Assembly (NCBI RefSeq): GCF_051622035.1
Contig: NC_135361.1
Span: 26,777,205-26,841,204 of the forward strand
Length of the DNA stretch: 64,000 nucleotides
Source of the DNA: Arctopsyche grandis
Taxonomy: Eukaryota; Arthropoda; Insecta; Trichoptera; Hydropsychidae
Reading direction: 5' to 3'
This document shows positions 1,741-64,000 of the stretch, piece by piece. The notes beneath the pieces were generated by a model. It was not told the DNA's origin and did no database searches. It worked only from the letters and a program-made list of their open reading frames with translations. How positions within the stretch are numbered: position 1 is the first letter of the stretch; every line of letters starts with the position of its first letter. The translations under genes and the position numbers were made by a program.

Positions 1741-1803
1741 TAGCCATATTGAAGACTTGGAACTACTCTGTAATGTCACTATTGCAAAATTGTAATAAAT
1801 AAA
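1741..1803 (+). repeat. SINE/LINE 3' stem-loop tail, isolated
   Basis: The loop phrase GACTTGGAACTACTCTGTAA is flanked by imperfect stem arms (GCCATATTGA and CACTATTGC) and followed by an AATAAATAAATA-type tail. It matches the tail architecture of better copies elsewhere in the window, but the body cannot be recognised. Confidence 0.45.
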
Positions 1804-8626: not shown

Positions 8627-8773
8627 AATTAAAAAAAAAAAAAAAATTAAAAAATTAAAAAAAAAAATTTAAAAAAAAATTTAAAAAAAATCAAAAAAAA
8701 AAATCAAAAAAAAAATAAAAAAAAAATCAAAAAAAAAATTTAAAAAAATCAAAAAAAAAATCATTTTTTTTTT
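8627..8773. repeat. A-rich low-complexity tract
   Basis: A-runs interrupted by TT, TTT or TC, ending in a T-run. It lies between the left end of the Helitron-like element and its minisatellite. Confidence 0.9.
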
Positions 8774-9609
8774 TGCCTTCTAGGGCTTCGCCCTCGGCAC
8801 CCCCCTGAGCCTTTGCCTTCTAGGGCTTCGCCCCTCCACGCCCCATGAGCAATTGCCGTTTAGGGCTTCGCCCCCATGATCAGTTGCCTTTTAGGGCTTC
8901 GCCCCTCCGCGCCCCCATGATTCAAAGCCGTCTAGGGCTTCGCCCCCCTTAGTTAATGCCTTTTAGGGCTTCGCCCCCCGCGCCCCCAAGATTAATTGCC
9001 GTTTCGGGCTTCGCCCCCCTTAGTTAATGCCTTTTAGGGCTTCGCCCCTCCGCACCCCCATGATTAAATGCCGTCTAGGGCTTCGCCCCCCCTAGTTAAT
9101 GCCTTTTAGGGCTTCGCCCCCCGCGCCCCCAAGATTAATTGCCGTTTAGGGCTTCGCCCCCCTTAGTTAATGCCTTTTAGGGCTTCGCCCCTCCGCGCCC
9201 CCATGATTAAATGCCGTCTAAGGCTTCGCCCCCATGATCAGTTGCCTTTTAGGGCTTCGCCCCTCCGCGCCCCCATGATTAATTGCCGTCTAGGGCTTCG
9301 CCCCCCTTAGTTAATGCCTTTTAGGGCTTCGCCCCTCCGCGCCCCCATGATTAAATGCCGTCTAAGGCTTCGCCCCCATGATCAGTTGCCTTTTAGGGCT
9401 TCGCCCCCCGCGCCCCCAAGATTAATTGCCGTTTAGGGCTTCGCCCCCCTTAGTTAATGCCTTTTAGGGCTTCGCCCCTCCGCGCCCCCATGATTAAATG
9501 CCGTCTAAGGCTTCGCCCCCATGATCAGTTGCCTTTTAGGGCTTCGCCCCTCCGCGCCCCCATGATTAATTGCCGTCTAGGGCTTCGCCCCCCTTAGTTA
9601 ATGCCTATT
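8774..9609. repeat. GC-rich minisatellite, ~36-base units in ~72-base dimers
   Basis: Each unit centres on TAGGGCTTCGCCCC, itself a small hairpin (GGGC-TTC-GCCC). Units alternate between a TGCCTTTTAGGG type and a TGCCGTCTAGGG or TGCCGTCTAAGG type. The phrase TTAGTTAATGCC recurs at spacings of about 70 bases, then about 143, so dimers and tetramers have both been amplified. The core resembles the GGCTTCGCTCGG of the host element's left end. Confidence 0.9.
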
Positions 9610-10438
9610 AGGGCTTGCGCCCCATGAGGCTGGGCCCCCCGGGCCCCCTTCGGGGCCCCACGGGGCTGCGCCCCTTGTGGCGCCCCCTTTTGAGCCCCAT
9701 GGGGCTGCGCCCCATGAGGCTGGGCCCCCCGCGCCCCCTTCGGGGCTTCACGGGGCTGCGCCCCTTGTGGCACCCCCTTTTGAGCCCCATGGGGCTGCGC
9801 CCCATGAGGCTGGGCCCCCCGGGCCCCCTTCGGGGCCCCACGGGGCTGCGCCCCTTGTGGCGCCCCCTTTTGAGCCCCATGGGGCTGCGCCCCATGAGGC
9901 TGGGCCCCCCGGGCCCCCTTCGGGGCCCCACGGGGCTGCGCCCCTTGTGGCGCCCCCTTTTGAGCCCCATGGGGCTGCGCCCCATGAGGCTGGGCCCCCC
10001 GCGCCCCCTTCGGGGCTTCACGGGGCTGCGCCCCTTGTGGCACCCCCTTTTGAGCCCCATGGGGCTGCGCCCCATGAGGCTGGGCCCCCCGGGCCCCCTT
10101 CGGGGCCCCACGGGGCTGCGCCCCTTGTGGCGCCCCCTTTTGAGCCCCATGGGGCTGCGCCCCATGAGGCTGGGCCCCCCGGGCCCCCTTCGGGGCCCCA
10201 CGGGGCTGCGCCCCTTGTGGCGCCCCCTTTTGAGCCCCATGGGGCTGCGCCCCATGAGGCTGGGCCCCCCGCGCCCCCTTCGGGGCTTCACGGGGCTGCG
10301 CCCCTTGTGGCACCCCCTTTTGAGCCCCATGGGGCTGCGCCCCATGAGGCTGGGCCCCACGGGGCTGCGCCCCTTGTGGCGCCCCCTTTTGAGCCCCACG
10401 GGGCTGCGCCCCTTGTGGCGCCCCTGGCGGGGCCCCAT
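9610..10438. repeat. 90-base tandem satellite with 270-base higher-order repeat
   Basis: CCCATGAGGCTGGGCCCCCC recurs exactly every 90 bases from 9621 to 10251. Two unit types are seen: type A has GGGCCCCCTTCGGGGCCCC, type B has GCGCCCCCTTCGGGGCTTC and a CACCCCC instead of CGCCCCC. The order is A B A A B A A B, followed by truncated units. Ninety is divisible by three, so long open frames appear in most frames; they are not genes. Confidence 0.95.
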
Positions 10439-10556
10439 GAAACTACTCGCTTTGCGCCCCCGCGGGGGTGAATCCATTGAATCGAAAAAAACAAATCGGC
10501 GCCCATGGATCGAAAAAAAAAAAAATCGAATCACGTGTTCGATGACGTCACCGATG

Positions 10557-10610: not shown

Positions 10611-10817
10611 AGGATATTTACATACATACAAAGTCTCTTTCCAAATTATAGATTAGATATAAAGATGGAATTACATTTTACAAAAAAAATCACTAATCAC
10701 GAAGAATCACATCTTAATTTTCTAAAGACGATTCCACAATATAAGAAACGCACACCAACAACCATATTGTATATATATTTTTCAAAATGAAACAAAATAA
10801 ATAATAAACAAAACAAA

Positions 10818-11258
10818 GCCAGCAGCATAGCTCGGACGTTAAGCTTCTGCTTACCGTCAAGAAGGTGCCGGGTTCTATCCCTGAATGAAAATGAATTTTT
10901 CAGAGTATGCTGTTGGTCAGACCTGGATTTGTGACTCCAGGTTGATCGTTTCCTATCAGAGTTTGCCAATTTTCTCTGATTTCATTGTTGAAACGGTTCC
11001 CGGAAAAAAATTGGCTAAAAATCCTTCCTACCTACTATGTCACCACTATTTGAAATTTGATGGATGTACAATAAAAATTTATGTACAATTCATAGATGTC
11101 TCGTTAATTTGCGAGTTTTTTCAGTGTCTCGCAATTCAACGACTTATAATAAAAAAAATGCTGCATTTGTATTTGTAATTGGCCAGGAAGGCGCATTGGG
11201 ATTTACCTGTAAGGCCTTCCTGGTATATATGTAAAAATAAAATAAAATAAAATAAAAC
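10818..11258 (+). repeat. tRNA-derived SINE, full length
   Basis: This is one of the two best copies. The head GCCAGCAGCATAGCTCGG (A-box-like TAGCTCGG) leads to a B-box-like GGGTTCTATCCC, then GCTGTTGGTCAGACC and the body phrase CCTATCAGAGTTTGCCAATT. The 3' end is a hairpin (CCAGGAAGGC and GCCTTCCTGG) around GCATTGGGATTTACCTGTAA, followed by AAATAAAATAAAATAAAA. A tRNA-type Pol III promoter and LINE-dependent spread are expected for this class. There is no protein code. Confidence 0.85.
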
Positions 11259-12580: not shown

Positions 12581-12915
12581 GCCAGGAATATAGTTCACTG
12601 GTTGCGTTAATGCTAACCATCGAGAGGTTGCCGGACTTGAGCCCCGAGATCACCTCAATTGAAGAGAGTATTTCTGCAGTGCTGCTGGTCAGACATGGAT
12701 ATTTGTGCTCCAACTTGATCGTTTCCTATCAGAGTTACCAATTCATTTGATTTCATTGTTGAAACGGTTCCTCATCAAATTTTCAAAACCATCCTACCTT
12801 ATATTTGTCACCATTATTTGAATATAATTTAGAATCTATAAAGTTGCATATGTACAAGTTTGAAAAGTTAACCCGTAATAGCATTATGGGAAAATATAAA
12901 TTTAATTGAATTTGA
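12581..12915 (+). repeat. tRNA-derived SINE, second subfamily
   Basis: The head (TAGTTCACTGGTTGCGTTAA, then TGCTAACCATCGAGAGG) resembles the copies at 18386 and 39488. It has GTGCTGCTGGTCAGACATGG and CCTATCAGAGTTACCAATT, and ends in TAATAGCATTATGGGAAAAT without the CCAGGAAGG hairpin. Confidence 0.7.
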
Positions 12916-16110: not shown

Positions 16111-18385
16111 ATTCTTTCAAGAGAAAAAAAAATACGCAAAAGCGTCAGGTACAACAAACCAATCAAAATATTTCATTCAACTTGTAGCTCACTAAAATAA
16201 ATCACATTACATATATACATAAAATGTATGAATGTTTGAAACTTACATAGAATACACCATACACATGTATGAACATACATATATTCAAAATTATTCGATT
16301 AAGTTAATGAATCTCAATTTTCGAGAAGGGAAATATGCCATATCGAATTTGTCATATGAATGAAAACGGAATAATAGAAGACGAAAAGCAAAGATGAGAT
16401 CTTCTGAAGTCTGAGTACAATAACGAAAGAATGAAATAAAATATGATGTTTAATGGCGACGAAACGCACACACACACACACACACACATACATACACCCA
16501 AAAGGCAAGACAAAAGGGAAAATCGGAGGACAAAGGACAACAGATTATTTAAGTAGGACGAGATTTTTCATAAGCAAAAATTGTCCATCAAAAATTCACA
16601 AACAAACAAATGAAAAAAAGCAACGACAACGCTTATATTGAACCTTGTTTACCCCAAGATTTTAATTAAAAAATCTCGGGTGACCTGTACGCAGATTTCG
16701 CACTGGAACATTTCATTTTTTAAAACACAGACACGATATTAGAACATCAAAAACTTCTATGGCACATGCTGATACCAATATTAAATAAAAATACGCCATT
16801 CAATATTAATCCCATAATATAAAATAAAAAAGCTATATACCACTTGTATTCAGATGATACACGGAGAGAGAAGAAAAAAACGTTAAATTTAATGTGAAAT
16901 GAAACTCTTCAGACCCGGAACTCGCAGACACAGATCGTGAAACTTTATGCCACTACGAGAAAATCAACAATAGAGACGCAAATACGACTTTAACGATATA
17001 AATTCAAATTTGAATCTCGCAAGTCTCTGCCTTACTTACTTAGAGAGCTGTAAAGAAATAAAGCTTGAAGCGACTACGCCTAAAATAAATTCAAGGAATT
17101 ATGTATTCATATCATATACATGTGTATAATATGAATGTGTATGCAGATAGACGTCAATAAATCTGCCAATCTGTTAACTGAAATAATTTGAATAGACACA
17201 CATACATATGCCTACATAGCACATAACGGACAATCTCGTATCATTGTCCCAAAGATAACCGCTAAGTAGATGAAGAAAGTAAATAATAATGAATCGTTCA
17301 CCCGTACTTTAAGTCGTATAAGAAAAAAAATCCAATGCAAACACAATACTTTTTGACTGACATTTCCTTCAGTACAATTTCGATAACATTATTCTGGTCG
17401 GACCGGTGGGTGCCAAGCAAACTATTGCTTTAACACAACGTCATAGACCTTTTAAGTGTCCACTTAAAACCAATCTTTCCGTTGTATCCATTGTCGGCAT
17501 ATATTATATCAGAATATTTCAATATGGCGTTCCACTAAGTGATCCACGGATTTTCTTCCTCGTCGATATTATGTACATATATACCTATAAATACATTGTA
17601 TGTACATTCGATATTCGATTTCGCCATTGTAAAACGCACACGTCGTTCGACTCGGTCGTTCATAAAAGGAAACTTGTTCCAGATTCGATTCGAAAGGGAG
17701 GGAGGAGAAAAAATGATAAATAAATAAATACGTATTTACATTTACGTACTCGATAAGGAGCATCGCTCATAACAAATTTAGCACTTGTACCGTAATAAAA
17801 TCTAATAAAAAAATACATAAGCTTTGAACAAATTCCTATTAACAAACATACATATATGTATATACCTACTAAAAGAAACCCTTTACGCCTTTTTGGTGAA
17901 AAGGGGGTAGAAGAATACGGTCGCAGATTAGGGGTTAGATTAATTGATAGCGTACGTACGTTCTTTTCAAATGTAACAACTCACCCCACACACTCACACA
18001 GAATGGTGTAAAATCTATCAAAATGTCAAACAAAACATTCGTTTGGATGGATTATCGTACTACATATGTATGTATATGACAGGGAATACAATCAATTATT
18101 TTTATGGGACCGCATAAGTAACATTTAATGTATGTACAAACATACATAACGAGTCTTTCAAAAGCCATATTGAATTACTTAAAGTAATATAAAGTAGAAA
18201 AATCGATGATATTAACAAACCGGCTGTTCTAAATACATACATACATACGTTCCCGAATTCTCGGAACAATTTTCAAAGCTAATTTTAGCAGTTTTATAAG
18301 TAATTTAGCGAACCTTTGGTAAACATATGGCACGTGGTACAAATTGCTTACACATTTAATTAAATTTGAATAATGAAAAAAATCA
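16110..18385. other. AT-rich intergenic stretch with CA microsatellite
   Basis: A CA run is at 16467-16488 and several ACATATGTATGT patches occur. I see no supported gene or defined transposon. Confidence 0.4.
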
Positions 18386-18715
18386 GCCAGCAGTGTAGTT
18401 CGGTGGTTGCGTTAATGCTAACCACCGAGAGGTGGGTTGATCCTGTGGGTTGACCTCGATTGAAAAAAAATTATTCCGAGTATAGTCTTAAGTTCTTTTG
18501 GTCAGACTAAGATATTTGTGACTCCAATTCGATCGTTTCCTATCAGAGTAAGCTAATTAATAGTAATTTAAAGCCAATTTATCTGATTTCATTGTTGAAA
18601 TGGTTCCTTATCAAATTGGCAAAGACCATCCTACTGTGTCACCACTATTTTATTATGATTTAAGTTGAATATGGCAACCAGATAACGGCATTATGGGAAA
18701 AATATAAAATTGGGC
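18386..18715 (+). repeat. tRNA-derived SINE, second subfamily
   Basis: Head GCCAGCAGTGTAGTTCGGTG, then TTGACCTCGATTGAAAAAAA, TTTCCTATCAGAGTAAGC and a terminal GGCATTATGGGAAAAATAT. A local duplication of the TGCCAATT-like segment is present (AAGCTAATTAATAG then AAGCCAATTTATC). Confidence 0.7.
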
Positions 18716-20480
18716 CCATCAGCTATGCTGCATTTCCCAAAGTATAAATAATTTAAAAAAAAACCTACATATATATTTGTTTATAAAATTATTCAATAGA
18801 GTAAGGGAGAGAGACGGGATAGTTGCTAAAATACACACACTTTTTAGAAAAATTATGTGGTACTTGAAAATTTATCAATGTTAGCCAAAAAGGGTCGAGT
18901 ATAATAAAGTATTTTCAAATGCGGCACTTTTCCAAACTATACGGAACATAAAAATTTCAAACAAATGAAAAACTCGGCAACATTTCAAAAGTGGAAAACG
19001 CTTTCAAATTGACAAATCAATAGATACTGAATAAATTAGTTCCTTATAATAACCGAAATTTTCATCATATACTATATATGTATTTATTAATTAATATCAG
19101 TAACATGCAGTATTACAATTTTTTTCAATACATTGACACCAAAAAAGTTTCAACCTATTTCTTTCTTTATTTATTTATTTAACCATTTATATATTATCCG
19201 CGACCATAGGTTGCCCAGGGCGACACCTATGATCAAACTTTTGTACATGCATACATACATACATCGAATTCATCGAATAAAACTAAAGAGTTCAATATTG
19301 CTGCTGCTTCACTCAACTCATCCAGGAAGTCGACTGTCAAATGTGTGCAACACACACAGGCGGTCTAAAGAAATAAGAATCAAAAAAATTATATCCCTTA
19401 AAAAATACGAAACAAGACATTGTACCTTTTAAAATGTATTTAGGTTGTCTTGTTGTATCCTACTTGTGGATTGCTTTTGCAAGTTACAACTTGTAACACA
19501 CCCGAACTATAATTTGAGGAAATAACGGGATAGCAGGTATATGTATAGGTATATGCAGGTTCAAATGTATTTTTTTTATGTATAATTGATGAGTATATTA
19601 TTTTCGTTATGTATTAATTTATGTTTAATTGTTATTTTGTTTTTTTTTGTGTTATATTTTTTGACCATTGTGGCGCTTTAGGAATTCCTGTTATGCCACA
19701 ATGGTCTGTTTAGAATAAAATAAATAAATAAATAAATGTTCGGTCCGCATAGAGCTAGGTATTTTATGTTCTATTATCTTTTTATTTTTATTTATTTATC
19801 TTTACAGATGTATAGGTATATGTATATTTCTTCAAGGATGTTGAGTATTGGTTGGTCCTAGTCCAATCCTAAGTCCTAGATGTGGGATTGGAGGTAAAAA
19901 CACTACATATACATATATTCATGAATTAACCTGAAAACATTCAGTCTCTCTTGTCATTTGGTCCCGTTCAGAACTAAAACTTTTTGTTTTCCTTCTGTTT
20001 TTCTGATAAGATGTTTTTATTACTCGCATGCACTTCCTTTATTTATTATTAACACGATTCATACAAATGCTGATGAAATTAAAGAACGGCCGATTTAAGT
20101 TTGCACACAGGCGGCTAAACTCCTAGTTTGCTAATATTCCATCAATGACAGCCAAACTGAACTGTGCAGACCTTCTTGCAAAAACGTTGAGATTACTGAA
20201 TACGTAGCAATGTACTCAATGACAGAATAGTACGTACACAATGATATATTTTCCTTTTAGACAGCTGACATGCATATTTGTATTTAAATACGCGACACGA
20301 AAAAACATTTGTTTTTCTTTTATTTGAAAAATTATTTATTTTTTGTTTTCACAAAACAATTTTACACTGCTCGCAACTTTCTTAAAAATTCTTAAAATTA
20401 CAATCCGGACATACCAGACGTGCAGTATTTGAACAACTGCATACATATGTATAGGTACATATGTACATACATATACATAT
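18716..20480. other. AT-rich intergenic stretch
   Basis: Apart from the tail at 19663-19736, nothing recognisable. It includes (TTTA)n near 19160-19190 and 19780-19800. Confidence 0.4.
19663..19736 (+). repeat. SINE/LINE 3' stem-loop tail
   Basis: The hairpin ACCATTGTGGC and GCCACAATGGT (11 bp, perfect) encloses GCTTTAGGAATTCCTGTTAT and is followed by AATAAAATAAATAAATAAA. The stem differs completely from the CCAGGAAGGC stem of the SINE at 10818, but size, loop position and tail are the same. Confidence 0.65.
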
Positions 20481-25209: not shown

Positions 25210-25652
25210 AAAAGCAGTTTGGCTTAGTGATAGCGTATATATTTAGCATCACTGAGGTCATAGGTTCGTGTCCTCGCCACTGCTGGTTAGATTTGGGGGT
25301 TTTGTGACTCCAAATCGATCGTTTCTCTATCAGAGTTTGCCAATTTTATCTGATCATTGCTGAAACGGTTCCTGAAAATTGGTATTAAAAAATCTAATCC
25401 TGTTGTCACAAAAATCTGCCTGTGTATAATTTGTATTAATTATACACAGTAATCTGAAATCCATAGATGTCACTATGATTATTATTTCTGATTAATTGTT
25501 ATATTCTATATATTCTGATTGTATATGTATGTATTACTGTATTTCTGATTTCTGATTGTTTATGTATTTCATTAACGTACACCCGTCGCATTGGAGCAAA
25601 TCTGTAATGGCGAGTGTGTATTGATTTGTGACAATAAAAAAAAAAAAAAAGC
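25210..25652 (+). repeat. tRNA-derived SINE, third subfamily
   Basis: Head AGCAGTTTGGCTTAGTGATA (A-box-like), B-box-like GGTTCGTGTCC, then CACTGCTGGTTAGATTTGGG and CTATCAGAGTTTGCCAATTT. The 3' hairpin ACACCCGTCGC / GGCGAGTGTGT encloses ATTGGAGCAAATCTGTAAT, followed by TTGTGACAATAAAA and a poly-A run. Confidence 0.8.
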
Positions 25653-30660: not shown

Positions 30661-31112
30661 TTATTTTATTTCATACCAGGAAGGCATTACAGGTAAACCC
30701 CAATGCGCCTTCCTGGCCAAATTACAAACAATACAGCATTGTTTTATTATATAAGTCGCTAAATTACGAGACACTGACTTAAACTCGACAATTAACGAGA
30801 CATCTATGAATTGTACATACATTTTTATTGTAATATTTACATTAATCATACTCAAATAGTGGTGACATAGTGGGTAGGAAGGATTTTTAGCCAATTTTTA
30901 ATCGGGAATCGTTTCAACAATGAAATCAGAGAAAATTGGCAAACTCTGATAGGAAACGATCAACCAGGAGTCACAAATCCTGGTCTGACCAGCAGCATTA
31001 CAGATATATTCAGAAAAATTCTTTTCAATCGAGGTCAGCTCAAGGGATCGAACTCGGCGCCTCTCAGTGTTAAGCAGAAGCTTAACGACCGAGCCACGCT
31101 GCTGGCTTACAA
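30661..31112 (-). repeat. tRNA-derived SINE, full length
   Basis: Closest to the copy at 10818 and better preserved. Minus strand: GCCAGCAGCGTGGCTCGGTC, TAAGCTTCTGCTTAACACTG, GGCGCCGAGTTCGATCCC, GCTGCTGGTCAGACCAGG, then the tail hairpin CCAGGAAGGC / GCCTTCCTGG around GCATTGGGGTTTACCTGTAA and an AAATAAAATAAA tail. Confidence 0.85.
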
Positions 31113-39487: not shown

Positions 39488-39740
39488 GTAGGCAGCAGTA
39501 TAGGTCGGTGGTTGCGTTAATGCCAAACACCGAGAGGTTCTCGTATTCAAGCCCTGGGTTGACGAAAATTGAAGAGAATTTATTCGATGTATTTCGGCAG
39601 TGTTGCGAGACTTGGATATTTGTGACTCCAAGTCGATCGTTTCCTATCAGAGTTTGCCAATTTATCTAATTTAATTAAAACGTTTCCAACAAATTGGCAA
39701 CCCTATTCAATCCCTTTCGCGCAAATTCAAACTACTGTTA
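39488..39740 (+). repeat. tRNA-derived SINE, second subfamily
   Basis: Head GCAGCAGTATAGGTCGGTGG, TTGCGTTAATGCCAAACACC, GAGTTTGCCAATTTATC, then TTGGCAACCCTATTCAAT. No tail hairpin. Confidence 0.75.
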
Positions 39741-42699: not shown

Positions 42700-43970
42700 A
42701 CATAGTTCATGTTGTAGATATCTTTCTGCAGACAAATCGGAAAATAAATTGTCTTGTTTTTTCAAAGGCCAGCAGCTTGTCTGTTTTTGTTCACAGGACA
42801 ATGATTCTTTCAAGGACACAAAATTGATCGAGCAATATAATGTGAATTATATAGTCAATGAATATGTAATGTTAAATCAAGTCGAGTGAAATTTCAATTC
42901 CTGGAAATTTCCGTTATTATCAATTATTAATGAACAAGTTTCTATTTAATTATTCAGTATTTTTAATAAATTATGATTAGGGTAGGGTGAATATTTAAGA
43001 ATGCCAATTTTACATAAGAATCGTTTCAAAAATGAAGGCAATCGATAAAATCTGACAGGAAAATGTTCATTATTCATTATCGAATCCTGCTAGAATGTAT
43101 GCATGATATATAATTACTAGTGTTGTACCCAATGACATATCATCACATGGGTGTTGGCATATTAAGTTGTTAAATAAAAAAAAATTAAAAGAAATGTGAA
43201 ATCGTCTGTCATGTGTTCGATCCCCGCGCGGTCGAATTTTTTTCAAATACCTTTTAAATATATTTCATTTAATATTTATATTTCAACATGAAAAATATGG
43301 TAAACACTACCTACCTACCTACATATAAACGATATAAAACACCGATAGAAAAATTAATTAATTAAATAAATTTTCAATAGATGGCGGTAAATTCTCTGCC
43401 AAGCGGATACATTGGTAGCAAAGAGTATAAAATAGTTTTTTTCTTTTTTTTATTGTATTCGTATATATGTATGTACGTTTTGGCAAAGGTTTACCTGTAA
43501 CGCACATATTTTATTTTATTTTTAAAAATCAATACCACAGATACTTAACAGGTAGCCCCAAAGCGTCACTGTGGTTATAATAAAAATGTAAGTAAACATA
43601 AATCAAGAATAACAAAAATCATAAAAAAATAAAAAGCAAGGAAGAAGTACATATGTATAATAAAAAAAAAACAAATAAATAAGATTGAAAATTATATCGT
43701 GCCATGTATAATCTGTTCGATCCACTCAACATAACTGGCATCGAAGAGGTCCAAGTAATGTGCCAGTAAGCTAAGGAGTCGAACAGCGAGAGGGGGGAGT
43801 TCATGAGCACGTTTGTTTTAGCCCTAATTGGCAAAAAGATATCATGCTTTCGCAAAACCCTATGATTTTCATATGTACATATGTATGTATGTCGAATGGA
43901 AACAACTATTATAGTACGACAAACAGACACACAGATATAATATCGAAAATCTACATATGTATATGATATG
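42700..43970. other. AT-rich intergenic stretch with SINE scraps
   Basis: Decayed SINE-like phrases occur near 42975-43070, and a B-box-like GTTCGATCCCCGCGCGG at 43208. Otherwise nothing recognisable apart from the tail hairpin at 43540. Confidence 0.35.
43540..43580 (-). repeat. SINE/LINE 3' stem-loop tail, isolated
   Basis: Minus strand: CCACAGTGACG, loop CTTTGGGGCTACCTGTTAAG, then TATCTGTGG, giving another stem sequence around the same loop type. Confidence 0.55.
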
Positions 43971-51914: not shown

Positions 51915-52346
51915 TATATACCAGGAAGGCTTGACAGGAAGACCCCAATGCGCCTTCCTGGACAATTAATTACAAACAATGCAGCATTTAATTATAACAT
52001 AAATCACTGTATTTCCAGAAGCTGAAGAAAGCGAAATAACAATTAATTAATTAATTAATTACAGAATTAATCCATAGAGACATCTATGGATTTTAGATTT
52101 GTACATATTTTTTACAAATTGTACACACAATCAATACAGAAGATTTGTGACAGCAGGAAATATGATTTTTTGCCAATTTTCAGGAACCGTTTCAACAACG
52201 ATCAGATAAAATTGGCAAACTCTGATAAGAAACGATCGATTTGGAGTCACAAATACCCCCAAATCAAACCAGCAGTATAGCGGATCGAACCCACTGATCA
52301 CTTGGTGCTCAACATATACGCTACCATTAAGCCACACTGCTCTATG
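51915..52346 (-). repeat. tRNA-derived SINE, chimeric subfamily
   Basis: The minus-strand head is of the third subfamily (AGCAGTGTGGCTTAATGGTA, ATTTGGGGGTATTTGTGACT) but the tail is the CCAGGAAGGC hairpin of the first (CCAGGAAGGCGCATTGGGGT). It therefore joins parts otherwise seen in different subfamilies. Confidence 0.8.
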
Positions 52347-53774: not shown

Positions 53775-54078
53775 GTATCATAAGAATGTACAATGCTTTC
53801 AACTGAAGGGTCGTGGGTTCAATTCCTGGCCTGTTGTTACGGGCAAGACCTTGGATATATGACTCCAGGTCAATCGTTACCTATCTGAGTTTGCCAATGT
53901 ATCTGATTTTATTGTTGAAACGATTCCAAAACAAATTGGCAACCTATCCCCATTTGTCACATTATTTAGATATAATTTCAAATTATAATAATATAAGCTT
54001 ATACAAATGGCATATGTACAAATTTGACCATAGGTGTTGTCTTGGGGCAAAACCTGTAATAGCACCATATAATTAAAA
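53775..54078 (+). repeat. tRNA-derived SINE, head-truncated
   Basis: TGCTTTCAACTGAAGGGTCG, GGGTTCAATTCC, TTGTTACGGGCAAGACCTTG, CTGAGTTTGCCAATGTATC, and a terminal CTGTAATAGCACCATAT. It is closest to the copy at 1163. Confidence 0.7.
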
Positions 54079-55667: not shown

Positions 55668-55962
55668 ACATTGAAAAGAATTTATTCTGAGTATATCTGT
55701 AATGCTGCTGGTCAGACTTGGATATTTGTGACTGTGAAACGGTTTCTCGTTTAAATTGGCTAAAAATCTTCCTACCTACTATGTCACCACTATTTGAGTA
55801 TGATTAATGTACAAGTCAAAATTCCTAGATGTCTCGTAATTCAACGACTTATGTAATAAAAATGCTGCATTGTTTATATGTAATTGGCCACGAAGGCGCA
55901 TTTCGGTTTACCTGTTAGGCCTTCCTGGTATACATATATGTATATAATAAAATAAAAAAAAT
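55668..55962 (+). repeat. tRNA-derived SINE, first subfamily, internally deleted
   Basis: CTGTAATGCTGCTGGTCAGA, TGTCACCACTATTTGAGTAT, and the tail hairpin CACGAAGGCGCATTTCGG / GGCCTTCCTGG. The segment GATCGTTTCCTATCAGAG is deleted. Confidence 0.75.
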
Positions 55963-56564: not shown

Positions 56565-56760
56565 GGTATTTATTTATTTATTCACACATTTTCCATAGTG
56601 ACTTTACAGATCAACTCCAAGTCGTCACTATGGCTAACATATACGTATGGCTACATATTATATATGCCAGGAAAGCCTAACAGGTTAACCCCAGTGCCCT
56701 TTCCTGACCAATTAATTACAAACAATTATATTACATATTGTACTTATAACATTTTGTGAT
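56565..56760 (-). repeat. Two SINE/LINE 3' stem-loop tails back to back
   Basis: At 56592-56633 a perfect 10-bp stem CCATAGTGAC / GTCACTATGG encloses (minus strand) GACTTGGAGTTGATCTGTAA and is followed by AATAAATAAATA. At 56668-56709 a CCAGGAAAGC-type stem encloses GCACTGGGGTTAACCTGTTA. The stems are unrelated; loop pattern and size agree. Confidence 0.65.
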
Positions 56761-56935: not shown

Positions 56936-59900
56936 ATGAAGTACATTTCGAAAATTTTTCAACCGTTAATCGTATCTCCTAGAAATGTCGCTTCTAAATC
57001 TCACGAAATTTCTTCGAATAGCCAACGGGTATCTATAAATTTACTATAAGTTTCATAAAACCTTACTTAAAAAAGTTAACCTAAAAATTTTAAAACCTCA
57101 CCAAATTATACATAACAAAGTACTGTTTAAACACTTAATCATATTCAATTCTTCAGCTGATGGTGGACCTAGGTATAGTAAGATCGACCAGTAGTACGGG
57201 ACTATTTGCTCTACTACCCCTCGGAGTGAGATCATTGGACAAACTCACCGCTATAGTGCATGCCAAACTAAATTCTTTAGATGCTTTACAAATTTCCCTT
57301 CCAACACTCGTCTCGGAAGATTTGTGGATCAAATCGCAAAGACTACAAGTCGCCGGTCCGGAAGTTATGAGAATGAAAGATAGACAAGACAGACGGTATA
57401 TTCTATCTCCAGTTAGTAATGCTAAATACAACTCTTGTATCATATATGTATGTAATGACTTAATAACTTAAAGATTATATAAACGTTTTAGACTCATGAA
57501 GAGTCCATTACAGATCTCATTGCCTCGGTTTCACCACTTTCTGCCAGGCAGTTGCCGTTAAGATTATATCAAGTAAGTTGTAATTCATAATATAGACGAA
57601 CACATTGATTGATATTTTAATCACGTTTTTATTGTAGATAGGCAATAAATATCGCGATGAGATGAGACCTCGATACGGTATAATAAGATCTAGAGAATTT
57701 TTGATGAAGGACATGTATACTTTTGATGTGGATAAAAATTTATCTATGAAAACTTATGAAGCAGTCAACGAAGCCTATGAACAGATATTTTCTGCTATAG
57801 GAATTGATTATATGAAAGGTTACTATCAAAATTACAATCACCGTTTATGTAAGTTCGTTATCAATTAACACTGTTATTGTAGAAAAATATTTAATTTTAG
57901 TTGAAGGCTGTACTGGTACCATAGGCGGCACAATATCTCATGAATATCACTACCCAGCATCGATCGGCGAAGATCAACTGCTCGAATGCAGCTCCTGTAA
58001 TCACCGAGTCTCCCAAGAACAATTGTTAAGTTTGAACGAAATCACCGAAGATAATTTATCTTGCTCCAAATGTGGAGATAAAAACTTAAAAAAGACTTCA
58101 GGAATAGAAGTAATGATTTCTATATATCATACATATGTATATATGTTACAGTTGAAGTATATCTTCCAGTTGTAATATATTTTGACAAGTCCGAATATAT
58201 TCCATCTAACCTGGTACCAATTACCGTTATAGTTACAATGTATTTTCAGTTGTAATATATTTAGACTAGTTTGAATATATTCCGTCTAACCCACGTAAGT
58301 TGACTCAAATGGTGAAGATATATTACAACTGAAAATACTTTTCAACCATAAGTTGGTACCAGGTTAGATGGAGACGTTAGGTTTTCGTGAAAATGTCACT
58401 CGACTAGTAAAGTCGTATTTTGTTTTGAACACATTCTTAAAGTACTCACTACCTTTATTTGTAATACCTAGCAAATATTAACACATCATGGAATTCTAAA
58501 GCATTCATAAAAGCATCAGAGGTGTCAAAACTCAACTGTTATATTACAACTGGCGCACATTGTCGAAAGTATATTTGATCTTGTAGAGATATAATTTACT
58601 AGTTGAATTGTATTCTAATAAGAATGACCTAAAACGCCGGTTGGAATATATTACAAGCATAGATATAGAATACCATAGATACGCCCTGAAGCTCTAAGCC
58701 GGTCACCCTGTTGGACCATGCACACACAAAAAAAAGTACAGATCATGCATACTCTCTCTCAGTAGCTAGTTACCTGCTAAGTAGGAAGGTCGATTGACAT
58801 TTTTCGAAAATGCCAACGTGTGCAGTGAAATTGTGTTACAATTACTCAAGAAAACATAAAAAGGCGGATGGCATCATAAGTAAGAATTAATATATAATGT
58901 CTTCAATTATAGTAGTATTTTAACATATAATGAAATATCGGCGCGATGTATGTACTGATGGAACAGCGGTCGACAACCTGGGTGTCACTAAATGCACGCG
59001 TATATCTTGTTGGCACTGAAGGAAATTCAGAAATCGACATTAAGTTTAAAACTACAAACAATGAACTAAATATTAAAGTGTCAACTTTAAAATTGATCCT
59101 TGTGGAAGTTACTAATGTTTAAATATTGTAATAGTTAATGATGGTTTTATTACAATAACATACATTTGTAGTTTAATATAGTGTGTATAGCTAAATATTT
59201 TTTTCTTAATATGGCTTTATTAGTTTGGTTTACTGTCACGCGGAGTGTCCAATAAAATAAAGTTATAAATATAATAAAACTTCAGAGCATGTACATATGT
59301 ACATAAACTGGTTGCTGACCACTGCCGACCGCTGCGTCCTTCCTTTTTTTTCACCACTTCCCCGCTAGTTAAACCCCCCGCACCCCTCAGTTAGTGGCGA
59401 CAAGAACATACAACGAAATTTGTATGTAATGGCATATCTAGGTTGTTCTATATCTATGATTATAAGTGAAAAAACACTTCGACTGTAACATACACACATG
59501 TGCATTATTTTTGTATGAGATTACGACAACTTCTGAAATATTCCAGGTGGGTCACACGTTTCTTTTAGGTACAAAATATTCCACAGCTCTCCAAGCGTTT
59601 ACAATCGGCTCTACTCCATTGCACATGGGTTGTTACGGTTTGGGTCTTTCTCGGCTTTTGGGAGCCGCTTTAGAAAACCTATCCACTGAAACTGAACTAA
59701 GATGGCCGACATCTATTGTGCCGTTCACCGTCTGCATCATCGGACCAAAAGTGTGTAAACACGTTTCTCATACATCACATTATACATTATGTTATCCGAT
59801 TTAACTTATCGGCCCTAAAAACAGAATGGATCTAAAGAGGACAAAACGGCGACACCTCTCATCGAAGACTTGTATTCAACGCTCACTAAATCGTTACCTG

Positions 59901-60946: not shown

Positions 60947-61390
60947 TATGTACATAATTGGTTTATTTCATTCCTCTCAACTTTGTTTAGAATATTAAAA
61001 AAATATCAACAAATGAAAAACTTAATTAGTTTTTTTAGAATAAAAATAAACATTTATCAAATGATACGTTGTATTTTATTTTTTTTTTTTAATCATCAAT
61101 CCACTACCGACTATACAAGATAGTTTGTCAACTTCAACTTATACAGAATACATTTCAAAAGGTTGACCTATATATTACACAAGTTTTGCACTTTCTATGA
61201 GTGCAAAACAATCCCCCCCCTAGTATTTATAATAATACTACAATATATTTTTATCTTGACTGTATTATCTTTATCTTTGTGTATTATCTATAATTCATTT
61301 GATCAATGTGACTCATTAGGGTTACCTGTAATGCCGCAATGGTATCAACTTTTTCAAAACAAATCATTTTTTCTAATTCGCATAGCAAAT
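60947..61390. other. AT-rich gap with tail scrap
   Basis: 61313-61345 contains TTAGGGTTACCTGTAATGCC, a decayed SINE-type 3' tail. Otherwise T-rich filler. Confidence 0.4.
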
Positions 61391-61829: not shown

Positions 61830-62759
61830 CAGTGGTTCTCAGGCAAAACTTTACCGTGGCCGCACAGGTGATAATAGTGGTCCCATGGAAATGTCTTGTG
61901 GCCGCACCAAATTTAATCAAATAAATTAAAGTTACAAAAAAAGTGAATCAATTTATTCATAAAATAAAAGAAATTTTAACATTTTGGTATCTATTTATTT
62001 AATAATAATGCAAATGGAAATTGCTCAATACTCCTTTCTTCCAATGCAAGCCGCATTGCTGCTTCTAAGTTTGCGTCTGTTGGCTGGTTTCTAAATTTGT
62101 TTTTAATAAAGTGCATTACACTGAATGATCTTTCGCAATATACGGTAGTGGGAAAAATAGACAATATTAATAAAGCAATTGTTGCCAAATCTTTATATTG
62201 GTTTGTTTCATTGTCAACGTATATTTCCGACCAAAATTTTTGAACTGAAATATTATTAAAATGGTTATTAAGTACTTGATCATGACTAATTTCTAATAAT
62301 GCATATTTTACGTTAGCCCAGTTAATTAATATCAATACTGAAAATGATTTTAATCTATTTTGTAGTAGTATGAAATTTTCATCTGTCATAATAAAAGTGG
62401 AAGATACAAAAGAAACAGTTTTAAAAAAATTCAATTCTTCGAACCTTTTATCAAGTTCCAGATTCAGAGATTTAAGATACTCTATTATTATAAGTTTTAA
62501 TTTTAATTTTGAAGTTGTGTCTGTCATCTTATCTATCAAATCACTAACAGAAGATAAAATTGAAAAATTGTCATTTTAAACTTCCGTCACAAGTCTTTTT
62601 TTAGTTTGTCAATGATGAGCATGGTTTTTATTATTGTTGAGTTACTTTTTTGTAGTTTTGAAAAAATATATTAAATTTTTTTAAATATTAGTATTATTTT
62701 CTATTAAGTCGCTGGTGGCCGCAGTAAAATCCACTAGTGGCCGCACTTGAGAACCACTG
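61830..62759 (-). mobile_element. hAT transposon, non-autonomous, 930 bases
   Basis: Both ends start CAGTGGTTCTCA (right end on the complement), the hAT-Charlie-type terminus, followed by GTGGCCGCAC subterminal repeats. The 8-base target duplication GTCTACAG (61822-61829 and 62760-62767) is exact, so insertion is recent or well preserved. Confidence 0.92.
61991..62539 (-). pseudogene. hAT transposase C-terminal remnant (dimerisation domain)
   Basis: The frame of 182 codons contains KDLATIALLILSIFPTTVYC, ERSFSVMHFIKNKFRNQ and LEAAMRLAL, the hAT C-terminal dimerisation motif (CERSFS). The BED finger and catalytic acidic residues upstream are absent, so it is not an active enzyme. The frame itself is unbroken. 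Confidence 0.85.
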
Positions 62760-62767
62760 GTCTACAG

Positions 62768-63186
62768 TCAAAGCAACATAAAATGGTGCAGTGAATTTGA
62801 TGATTCTTAATTTGAAACTAGATTTGTATAGCAAACATACACTCATCTATATTAAACTTTGTACTTATTGTAAATAATTCCATAGCAGAAAAACATTAAC
62901 GAATTTGTAGACATAACCATCACTATCAATTGATTTTAAATCCGATTTCGAAAAAATCTCTAAACGCCTTACAATCGTATATTAAAAGATAACTCTACTA
63001 ACAAAATTAGATCTGTATCATATAACAAGAACAACTTAATTCTGGATTCTATAATCTTCAAATTGATAGCAAGTGCGTCAAACAAAAGATAAGCCAATAA
63101 TTCAGCGATAACTACATAAGTTTCCACATAATTAAACTTACGTTTTATCGTTCGAAGCGAGTACACATCCTATACAAGCCACAAAA
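62768..63186. other. Gap before SIAH-like gene
   Basis: AT-rich with no repeats recognised; probably includes the promoter and 5' leader of the following gene. Confidence 0.4.
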
Positions 63187-63688
63187 ATGAACAAATGTAA
63201 GTATTCGTACAAAATAAGAACATGCAAATCTCAATTGATTGTAACGGATTTCCAATTGTATTTTATTTCGAAAGCACTGAAAGATCTTTTACTTTCGGAC
63301 CACTATGCCAGCCTGACCGGAGAGTTGCAGTGCGCATGCAAAGCCTATTTGCAACCTCCCATATTATTGTGTACCCAAGGACATGGTTCGTGCAGTAAAT
63401 GTCGCAGAAGATACCAACGGTGTTCCACTTGCAAAGTATTGAAAAAAATGTACTTACATATATAATGGTATCTTGTTTTGATGATTTATATCCATAATAG
63501 TATGTTTCATCAGGAAGAGTTTACCGAGACCAGAAGCGTGGCATTGGAAGCATTGGCAGACAAGTTGCAGTTCCCCTGTCCCCATAAAGGATGCAAGGCT
63601 CGCGTGCAACTGAGCATGCTCAATGAGCACGAAGCGTCATGTTTGTTCAGACCTACTCCGTGCTTCATGAACAAAGTTTACGGTGATT
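63187..63688 (+). CDS. SIAH-like RING / zinc-finger E3 ubiquitin ligase, 5' part
   Basis: Proposed exons are 63187-63196, 63275-63435 and 63514 to about 63675-63688 (three candidate donors). The RING sits at residues ~23-56: CACKAYLQPPILLC, TQGHGSCSKC, then CSTC, with PPI and GH as in SIAH/Sina. A SIAH-type finger follows (FPCPHKGC ... HEASC, C79, C84, H96, C100). The usual CxxC at the start of the RING is CxC here (C23-A-C25), so the first zinc ligand is displaced. The first intron acceptor (TTATTTCGAAAG) is weak, and reading straight through it also stays in frame. The substrate-binding domain should lie beyond the window. Whether it is an active ligase is unclear. Confidence 0.75.
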
Positions 63689-64000
63689 GTAAAGAGTTTA
63701 TTTTACATATATTCTATTCCACGTTGCTGTTTCGACGTAATTTTTCAGCTAGTTTAGTTTTTCTTAGACAACCGATTCTTTTACCTACCTATCAAACTGC
63801 GTCAACTTGCTTGATCCTGCAAGATATGAAGTGCTTAGGTATTTTAGGATTAGTATGGTGAAAAAGGTACAATTTTCAACACTCTTGCCAATGTATGTAA
63901 AGCATTATAAACACAAGTTCATTTTAACTTTTAATCAGTGTAAGATTGAGATTGTAAATGTTTATACTCTGTTTTGAGGAAGTCCACATTACTCTGGTGA

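Follow-up and report, generated by a model that had tools for sequence, protein, structure and literature searches.

Hairpins and other features of the window

Eleven strong copies of one tail hairpin were found in the window, by which is meant the whole 64-kb stretch of DNA analysed, each matching the covariance model R1 at E 4e-8 or better. R1 was built from ten of these copies, which match by construction, and only the one at 55886 was new; a further 11 listed R1 matches in the window, with E values from 0.019 to 4.2, were left out of the count. A preliminary description had placed tails at 1741, 11181, 19663, 25577, 43540, 56592 and 56668, and the hairpin is indeed present at all seven as an R1 match, the last three being on the minus strand. 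Four others had been overlooked (30674-30718 and 51919-51963 on the minus strand, 55886-55930 and 61301-61344 on the plus strand). At gathering scores, Rfam returned no family in the window. The hairpins, with one weak relative, are listed below with their R1 scores; L numbers denote fetched loci.

1742..1786, plus strand: type II tail hairpin, decayed; 45.4 bits; L096 match of 78.5% over 200 columns; by sequence, probably from a 5'-truncated LINE-II copy
11181..11225, plus strand: type I tail hairpin of SINE 10817-11246; 62.7 bits; SINE match of 82% over 460 columns
19663..19706, plus strand: type III tail hairpin, stem CCATTGTGGC/GCCACAATGG; 49.8 bits; LINE 3' end of L014, 93.8% over 130 columns; probably, from this similarity, a strongly 5'-truncated LINE-III copy
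25576..25620, plus strand: type IV tail hairpin, stem ACACCCGTC/GGCGAGTGT; 46.9 bits; close copy in L031
30674..30718, minus strand: type I tail hairpin of the young SINE 31107-30660; 65.3 bits; SINE match of 99.6% over 448 columns
43533..43576, minus strand: type V tail hairpin, stem CCACAGTGAC/GTATCTGTGG with two mismatches; 50.6 bits
51919..51963, minus strand: type I tail hairpin of SINE 52254-51918; 55.5 bits; SINE match of 69% over 350 columns
54033..54066, plus strand: weak hairpin relative, probably decayed; 18.6 bits, E 0.019; SINE match
55886..55930, plus strand: type I tail hairpin, partly decayed, of SINE 55670-55931; 39.2 bits; SINE matches
56591..56635, minus strand: type II tail hairpin, stem CCATAGTGAC/GTCACTATGG; 55.2 bits
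56665..56709, minus strand: type I tail hairpin; 52.1 bits
61301..61344, plus strand: tail hairpin, type III-like stem with mismatches; 48.5 bits

The surroundings of these copies differ. An (AATA)n tail comes after the hairpin at 56591..56635, and similarity to LINE-II 3' ends (blastn, L016, L086 and others) starts only at the hairpin itself; at 56665..56709, SINE similarity is confined to the tail part, 56726-56655. The type I and type II tails within 56591-56709 have the same orientation and are separated by 29 nt. A SINE central domain lies upstream of 25576..25620 (SINE match at 25298-25382) and of the weak relative at 54033..54066 (53853-53940). No LINE C-terminal match was found in the window for the hairpin at 19663..19706; the one at 43533..43576 has a better paired relative in L110, after a LINE C-terminus. 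For 61301..61344 there was no blastn match among the fetched loci, and no element body was recognised.

Other features of the window are as follows.

9521-10450: GC-rich tandem array, unit 90 bp, with long open frames on both strands
8742-9688: GC-rich tandem array, unit about 72 bp
59466-59801, plus strand: weak class II tRNA-synthetase core match (E 0.0065, below cut-off), perhaps a prolyl-tRNA synthetase exon, the name being a guess
61994-62575, minus strand: hAT dimerisation domain fragment
63136-63858, plus strand: Sina-type RING match with a below-cut-off Sina zinc-finger match

Core motif and paired stems

Each strong copy has an outer stem of 10-11 bp, an internal loop and a 4-bp inner helix (U.G, G.U, G-C and R-Y), and the core motif can be written TTGGR-N4/5-Y-CTGT-WA. 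In the genome searched (475.7 Mb, 189 contigs), the spacing TTGGR-N5-Y-CTGTAA has 5745 matches against 46 for its reversed control, TTGGR-N4-Y-CTGTTA has 3162 against 51, and a stricter form of the core has 1139 against 1 reversed; genome-wide, the core is 60-125 times commoner than reversed controls. This genome has 148 matches to the cuticle-protein family Chitin_bind_4, of which 14 control genomes have none; as the family is an arthropod one, the host is an arthropod and probably an insect. The literal pattern given at first, TTGG-G---CTGTAA, is not enriched, with 99 genome matches against 495 for its reverse. A window scan for core plus stem, in which the core was written after copies had been seen, gave 6 matches and none in 20 Markov sequences; in 82 fetched records, 30 of them fetched because they bear the core, it gave 47 matches, with 0 in reversed sequence and 1, 1 and 0 in Markov sequences. 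When the common stems were barred by way of the last flank letter, 164 matches were obtained against 43 in the control, and by eye these comprised many damaged copies of known types together with likely chance matches.

The loop had been described as constant, a claim that the apical loop contradicts, as 16 different apical 4-nt sequences occur among 100 listed TTGGR-N4-Y-CTGTTA matches. Since the conserved letters form the internal loop and the 4-bp inner helix, it is these that make up the constant part, all of which had gone under the name of loop in the earlier description. In the same 100 listed matches, the inner R-Y pair is G-C in 56, A-T in 33, A-C in 6 and G-T in 5. RNAalifold, run on a plain MAFFT alignment of 12 hairpins of our own choice, returned an 11-bp outer stem and the 4-bp inner helix, whose successive pairs were U.G in 12 of 12, G.U in 10 and A-U in 2, G-C in 12 of 12, and G-C in 7 and A-U in 5. 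The LINE-IV row of that alignment is one position off on the 3' arm and so loses pairs. Single folds contained the inner helix in seven of nine cases, the exceptions being 56665 and SINE IV.

Covariation was tested with a pair counter and with RNAalifold, and the claim that the stems change with compensation was backed by window shuffles, 12 representative stems, a set of 37 rows and RNAalifold. Among the window copies, 90.7% of 150 cells are paired against 72.5% when shuffled (0 of 500 shuffles), double changes occur in 9 of 15 pairs, and the covariation value is 0.564 against 0.198 shuffled. The 12 representative stems, chosen by us with their arms set by hand, have 113 of 120 cells paired, as compared with a mean of 79.7 and a maximum of 94 in 2000 shuffles. 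In 37 distinct rows from 23 sources, double changes are found in 10 of 10 outer pairs, and there are 118 doubly changed cells over 15 pairs (0 of 500 shuffles). Pairing in these rows reaches 91.0% against 70.9%, and covariation 0.573 against 0.181 (0.06-0.19 with slid partners; 0 of 500 shuffles, or 2 of 500 for further pair types), figures that lean towards structure, since we fitted the alignment to the model and picked its rows ourselves from related sequences. RNAalifold recovered the same two helices when given the 12 hairpins aligned by MAFFT, and double changes occur in 9 of the 15 pairs.

That each stem pairs with its partner was confirmed as to the compensated changes and not as to full pairing everywhere, for several copies are mismatched: the stem at 61301 has two mismatches and two wobbles, that at 25576 one mismatch and two wobbles, and that at 56665 one mismatch and one wobble. 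Uncompensated changes are also common within stem types. Counts within types were made on the first 100 listed of the 3162 TTGGR-N4-Y-CTGTTA matches, all on contig 1, where 51 rows are perfect over the six visible pairs and 71 have at least 5.5 of the six. One type IV stem pair is T-A in 18, C-G in 8 and T-G in 2 of 31 listed rows, with three others, and the inner pair of stem type I is C-G in 39, T-G in 15, T-A in 3, C-A in 2 and A-G in 1 of 60. The type IV stem also has an internal double change, CTCGTC/GACGAG against CTCGCC/GGCGAG. The SINE IV stem carries a C.A mismatch and wobbles, and by our own count its 35-nt form makes up 23 of 100 listed TTGGR-N5-Y-CTGTAA rows; with a mismatched form so frequent, a perfect stem is not required. 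In all there are about six stem types, some of them related (GTG occurs in II, III, V and VI alike), and independent replacements are therefore few.

LINEs and SINEs that carry the tail

The preliminary description had called these hairpins SINE/LINE 3' tails, an identity supported by the A-rich ends that follow them and the LINE C-termini upstream, and the search it proposed for LINEs with the same 3' motif was successful for several types. At least five LINE types, with a reverse transcriptase (RT) or ORF2 C-terminus upstream, carry the hairpin on different stems, and two stem types were found in both a LINE and a SINE. In LINE types I, II, III, IV and VI, the hairpin is on the sense strand some 70-540 nt past the matched ORF2 C-terminus, and in type V it abuts; an A-rich repeat comes just after the hairpin. 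In types I, II, III, V and VI the coding part recognised is the C-terminal region.

LINE IV has a recognisable RT domain (RVT_1, E 7.1e-31 in L069 and 1.1e-13 in L070), with PDB matches to LINE-1 ORF2 and R2. A loose first look gave 8133 candidates for this type, of which 150 were scored. Thirteen loci were fetched, and 11 of them have the hairpin after the C-terminus at E<=1 (8 of 13 at E<0.01), 121-142 nt past the C-terminal match where the end of the match is clear; the other two flanks had no hairpin match at E<=1. For LINE II/III, where 150 of 2425 loose candidates were scored and 20 3' flanks were picked by us down the identity range, 14 of the 20 have the hairpin at E<0.01 (15 matches, all on the sense strand) and six have no hairpin match at E<=1. 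A looser regular expression found fewer hairpins in these flanks than R1 did. No hairpin was present within the 450 nt read in the C-terminal flanks of L016, L033 and L066 or of the LINE-IV locus L080.

The LINE-I tail was found by fetching upstream of listed TTGGR-N4-Y-CTGTTA rows. Five loci (L102-L106) have a common 3' end, which bears a type I stem, and two of them (L102 and L104) have C-terminal homology about 540 nt upstream, at modest E values of 2e-6 and 3e-5. In L110 the type V hairpin abuts the C-terminal match, and in L081 a type VI hairpin comes just after a second LINE, which is 34% identical to LINE IV over 96 residues. The two LINE families that topped the RT search, exemplified by L041 (906-aa open frame, poly-A end) and L058 (1052-aa, GAA repeats), were rejected as carriers; these were the two loci in which their 3' ends were read. 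Across 30 RT loci of two LINE families other than the tail-bearing types (28 and 2), there was one hairpin match, in L050, inside a SINE match.

These placements bear on the suggestion that the hairpins are palindromic ends of DNA transposons or MITEs with no tie to retroposition. Perfect inverted repeats of 10-12 bp would suit such ends, yet the core is strand-specific (1139 against 1 and 5745 against 46 reversed), A-rich repeats follow the hairpin, and RT-coding LINE sequence lies upstream on the sense strand. For the LINE-linked copies this origin is refuted; at most it could apply to individual copies that are unplaced, 61301 among them, and as a general account it is scarcely credible. 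Convergence of similar tails in independent families, in place of inheritance with rewriting of the stem, draws on the distance between the LINE types, whose compared ORF2 C-termini are 28-40% identical (54-119 residues). Against this stand the homology of the C-terminal domains compared, a stem length and flanks (TTGGR and YCTGTWA) that are common to the families, and stems of intermediate form (II, III and V), so that convergence appears quite improbable.

On the SINE side, type I tails end an element of 430-450 bp whose head is tRNA-like and whose 3' end is A-rich, as aligned from 14 loci and four window copies. Identity to the majority sequence reaches 98-99% in several copies, which are thus recent. 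By eye, the head contains a B-box-like GTTCGATCC and an A-box-like stretch, and ARAGORN made no tRNA calls in the window. Similarity to the type I SINE was detected at 18 places in the window (20 blast rows), six of which end in a strong hairpin. Among fetched loci, L107, L108, L109, L116 and L117 have the SINE body and a type I tail, L113 (CTCGCC) has a SINE stretch about 580 nt upstream, and L115 is SINE IV. No body match was obtained for L112, which has a type I tail, for L111 (type V-like) or for L114 (type IV, CTCGCC).

Tails of the SINEs and LINEs correspond. The type I SINE tail is 85-89% identical to the LINE-I tails of L102-L106 over 62 columns, and for type IV the LINE of L070 and the SINE at 25576 have the motif and most of the stem in common. 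Two features of a stringent-type pair are found here: a tail shared by SINE and LINE, and a 3' stem-loop followed by short repeats.

A central stretch of about 100 bp (SINE positions ~111-217) is common to 16 of the 18 SINE places in the window, which diverge elsewhere, the tails differing or being unrecognisable, and could represent a separate SINE central domain.

SINE central stretch in the window: 1218-1297, 12666-12829, 18385-18660, 25298-25382, 39490-39687, 40669-40523, 53853-53940 and others

Positions 97-112 of the SINE majority sequence are identical over 16 nt to part of a LINE tail hairpin (L093 354-369, E 0.005); this may be what is left of a second tail in a composite SINE, or it may be chance. 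In L018, a stretch resembling the SINE 3' body (~1581-1542, minus strand) lies between the LINE C-terminus and a type II hairpin, and could be either a LINE-derived SINE body or a nested insertion.

Reading of the hairpin and known systems

Very probably, the hairpin serves a group of related LINEs, together with the SINEs that exploit their machinery, as a 3' recognition tail; that the LINE RT does the recognising is what we infer from the analogy of stringent LINEs. The inner motif would be the part of the RNA that the RT binds, and target-primed reverse transcription would start at the A-rich tail. The outer stem would serve chiefly as a helix holding out the inner motif and so would drift in matched pairs while the LINE families separate, each SINE family retaining the stem of the LINE that supplied its tail. 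The stem types track different LINE and SINE families, so the term 'alleles', used for them earlier, does not apply. The position of the hairpin, with A-rich ends after it, also suits 3' end formation, and a role in RNA metabolism, be it 3' end formation, stability or export, might be what has kept it in both LINEs and SINEs. This seems improbable: should the SINE head be the pol III promoter that it resembles, differently transcribed elements share the tail; two other LINE families of this genome, sampled at 30 RT loci, manage without the hairpin; and known stringent LINE/SINE pairs share tails for RT recognition, as stated in the available text of two papers (PMC4176376, PMC3747384).

Recognition tails of this kind have precedents. 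Passages of a review by Ohshima (PMC3747384) describe monocot L1s and SINEs in which stem letters vary with compensatory mutations and the loop and flank letters are conserved, and add that stem-loops of this sort occur widely among stringent LINEs and SINEs. Compensated stems are thus already in print for plant tails, and the kind of structure is known. The plant L1-clade LINEs and monocot SINEs resemble the present elements in the compensated stem with its variable letters, the conserved loop and flank letters and the tail common to LINE and SINE; they differ, in the text available, in having a UCU loop and a CGAG flank where a UUGGR/YCUGUWA inner helix is found here, and in belonging to the L1 clade, whereas the present motif is common to at least five LINE types within a single arthropod genome.

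Zebrafish and eel elements of the L2 clade (ZfL2-1, ZfL2-2 and UnaL2) likewise have a 3' stem-loop before a short repeat, and are likened to the present ones by tail features, not by clade. In the portions of the report at hand (PMC4176376), swapping the stem of ZfL2-1 with the loop kept left about half of the mobility, and a swapped loop cut mobility strongly; mobility of the zebrafish LINEs remained after a stem swap that kept the loop. Mobility of ZfL2-2 was abolished by a mutated loop or an unpaired stem, and that of UnaL2 is said there to be lost when stem letters change. The pattern seen here is what the ZfL2 rule, with a swappable stem and a needed loop, would be expected to leave in evolution. 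The earlier statement that the stem is free to vary stands as regards compensated variation; as an idea it is not new, being in print for plant tails and tested in zebrafish L2. A further comparison is with HaSE1 and HaSE2 of Helicoverpa, insect tRNA-derived SINEs with a conserved central domain, of which HaSE1 has a LINE-derived tail resembling HaRTE1.1, which ends in TGA repeats (PMC3272025, as far as its text was available); the word stem-loop is absent from that available text, and the likeness of the central domains is one of description.

A search of titles and opening abstracts found no description of this motif, which is no proof of absence; as far as that literature search shows, what is new is the motif, its presence in an arthropod and how many stem versions coexist across the LINE families. 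A single genome that has one tail in about six stem versions and thousands of copies, among LINEs as well as SINEs, offers a natural mutagenesis series that addresses what a LINE RT reads in its template. The series points to the internal loop and the U.G/G.U inner helix, not to the apical loop or the stem letters, and stem-swap and motif-swap tests are easy to design from it.

A more speculative and on balance unlikely extension is that the inner motif is a docking code common to coexisting LINEs and the outer stem a fast-changing, family-specific lock, with LINEs rewriting their stems by compensated changes under pressure from tail-copying SINEs, and the SINEs following. On that reading, the half-matched stem of SINE IV could be that of a SINE in transit, and the CTCGCC/GGCGAG copies could be another.
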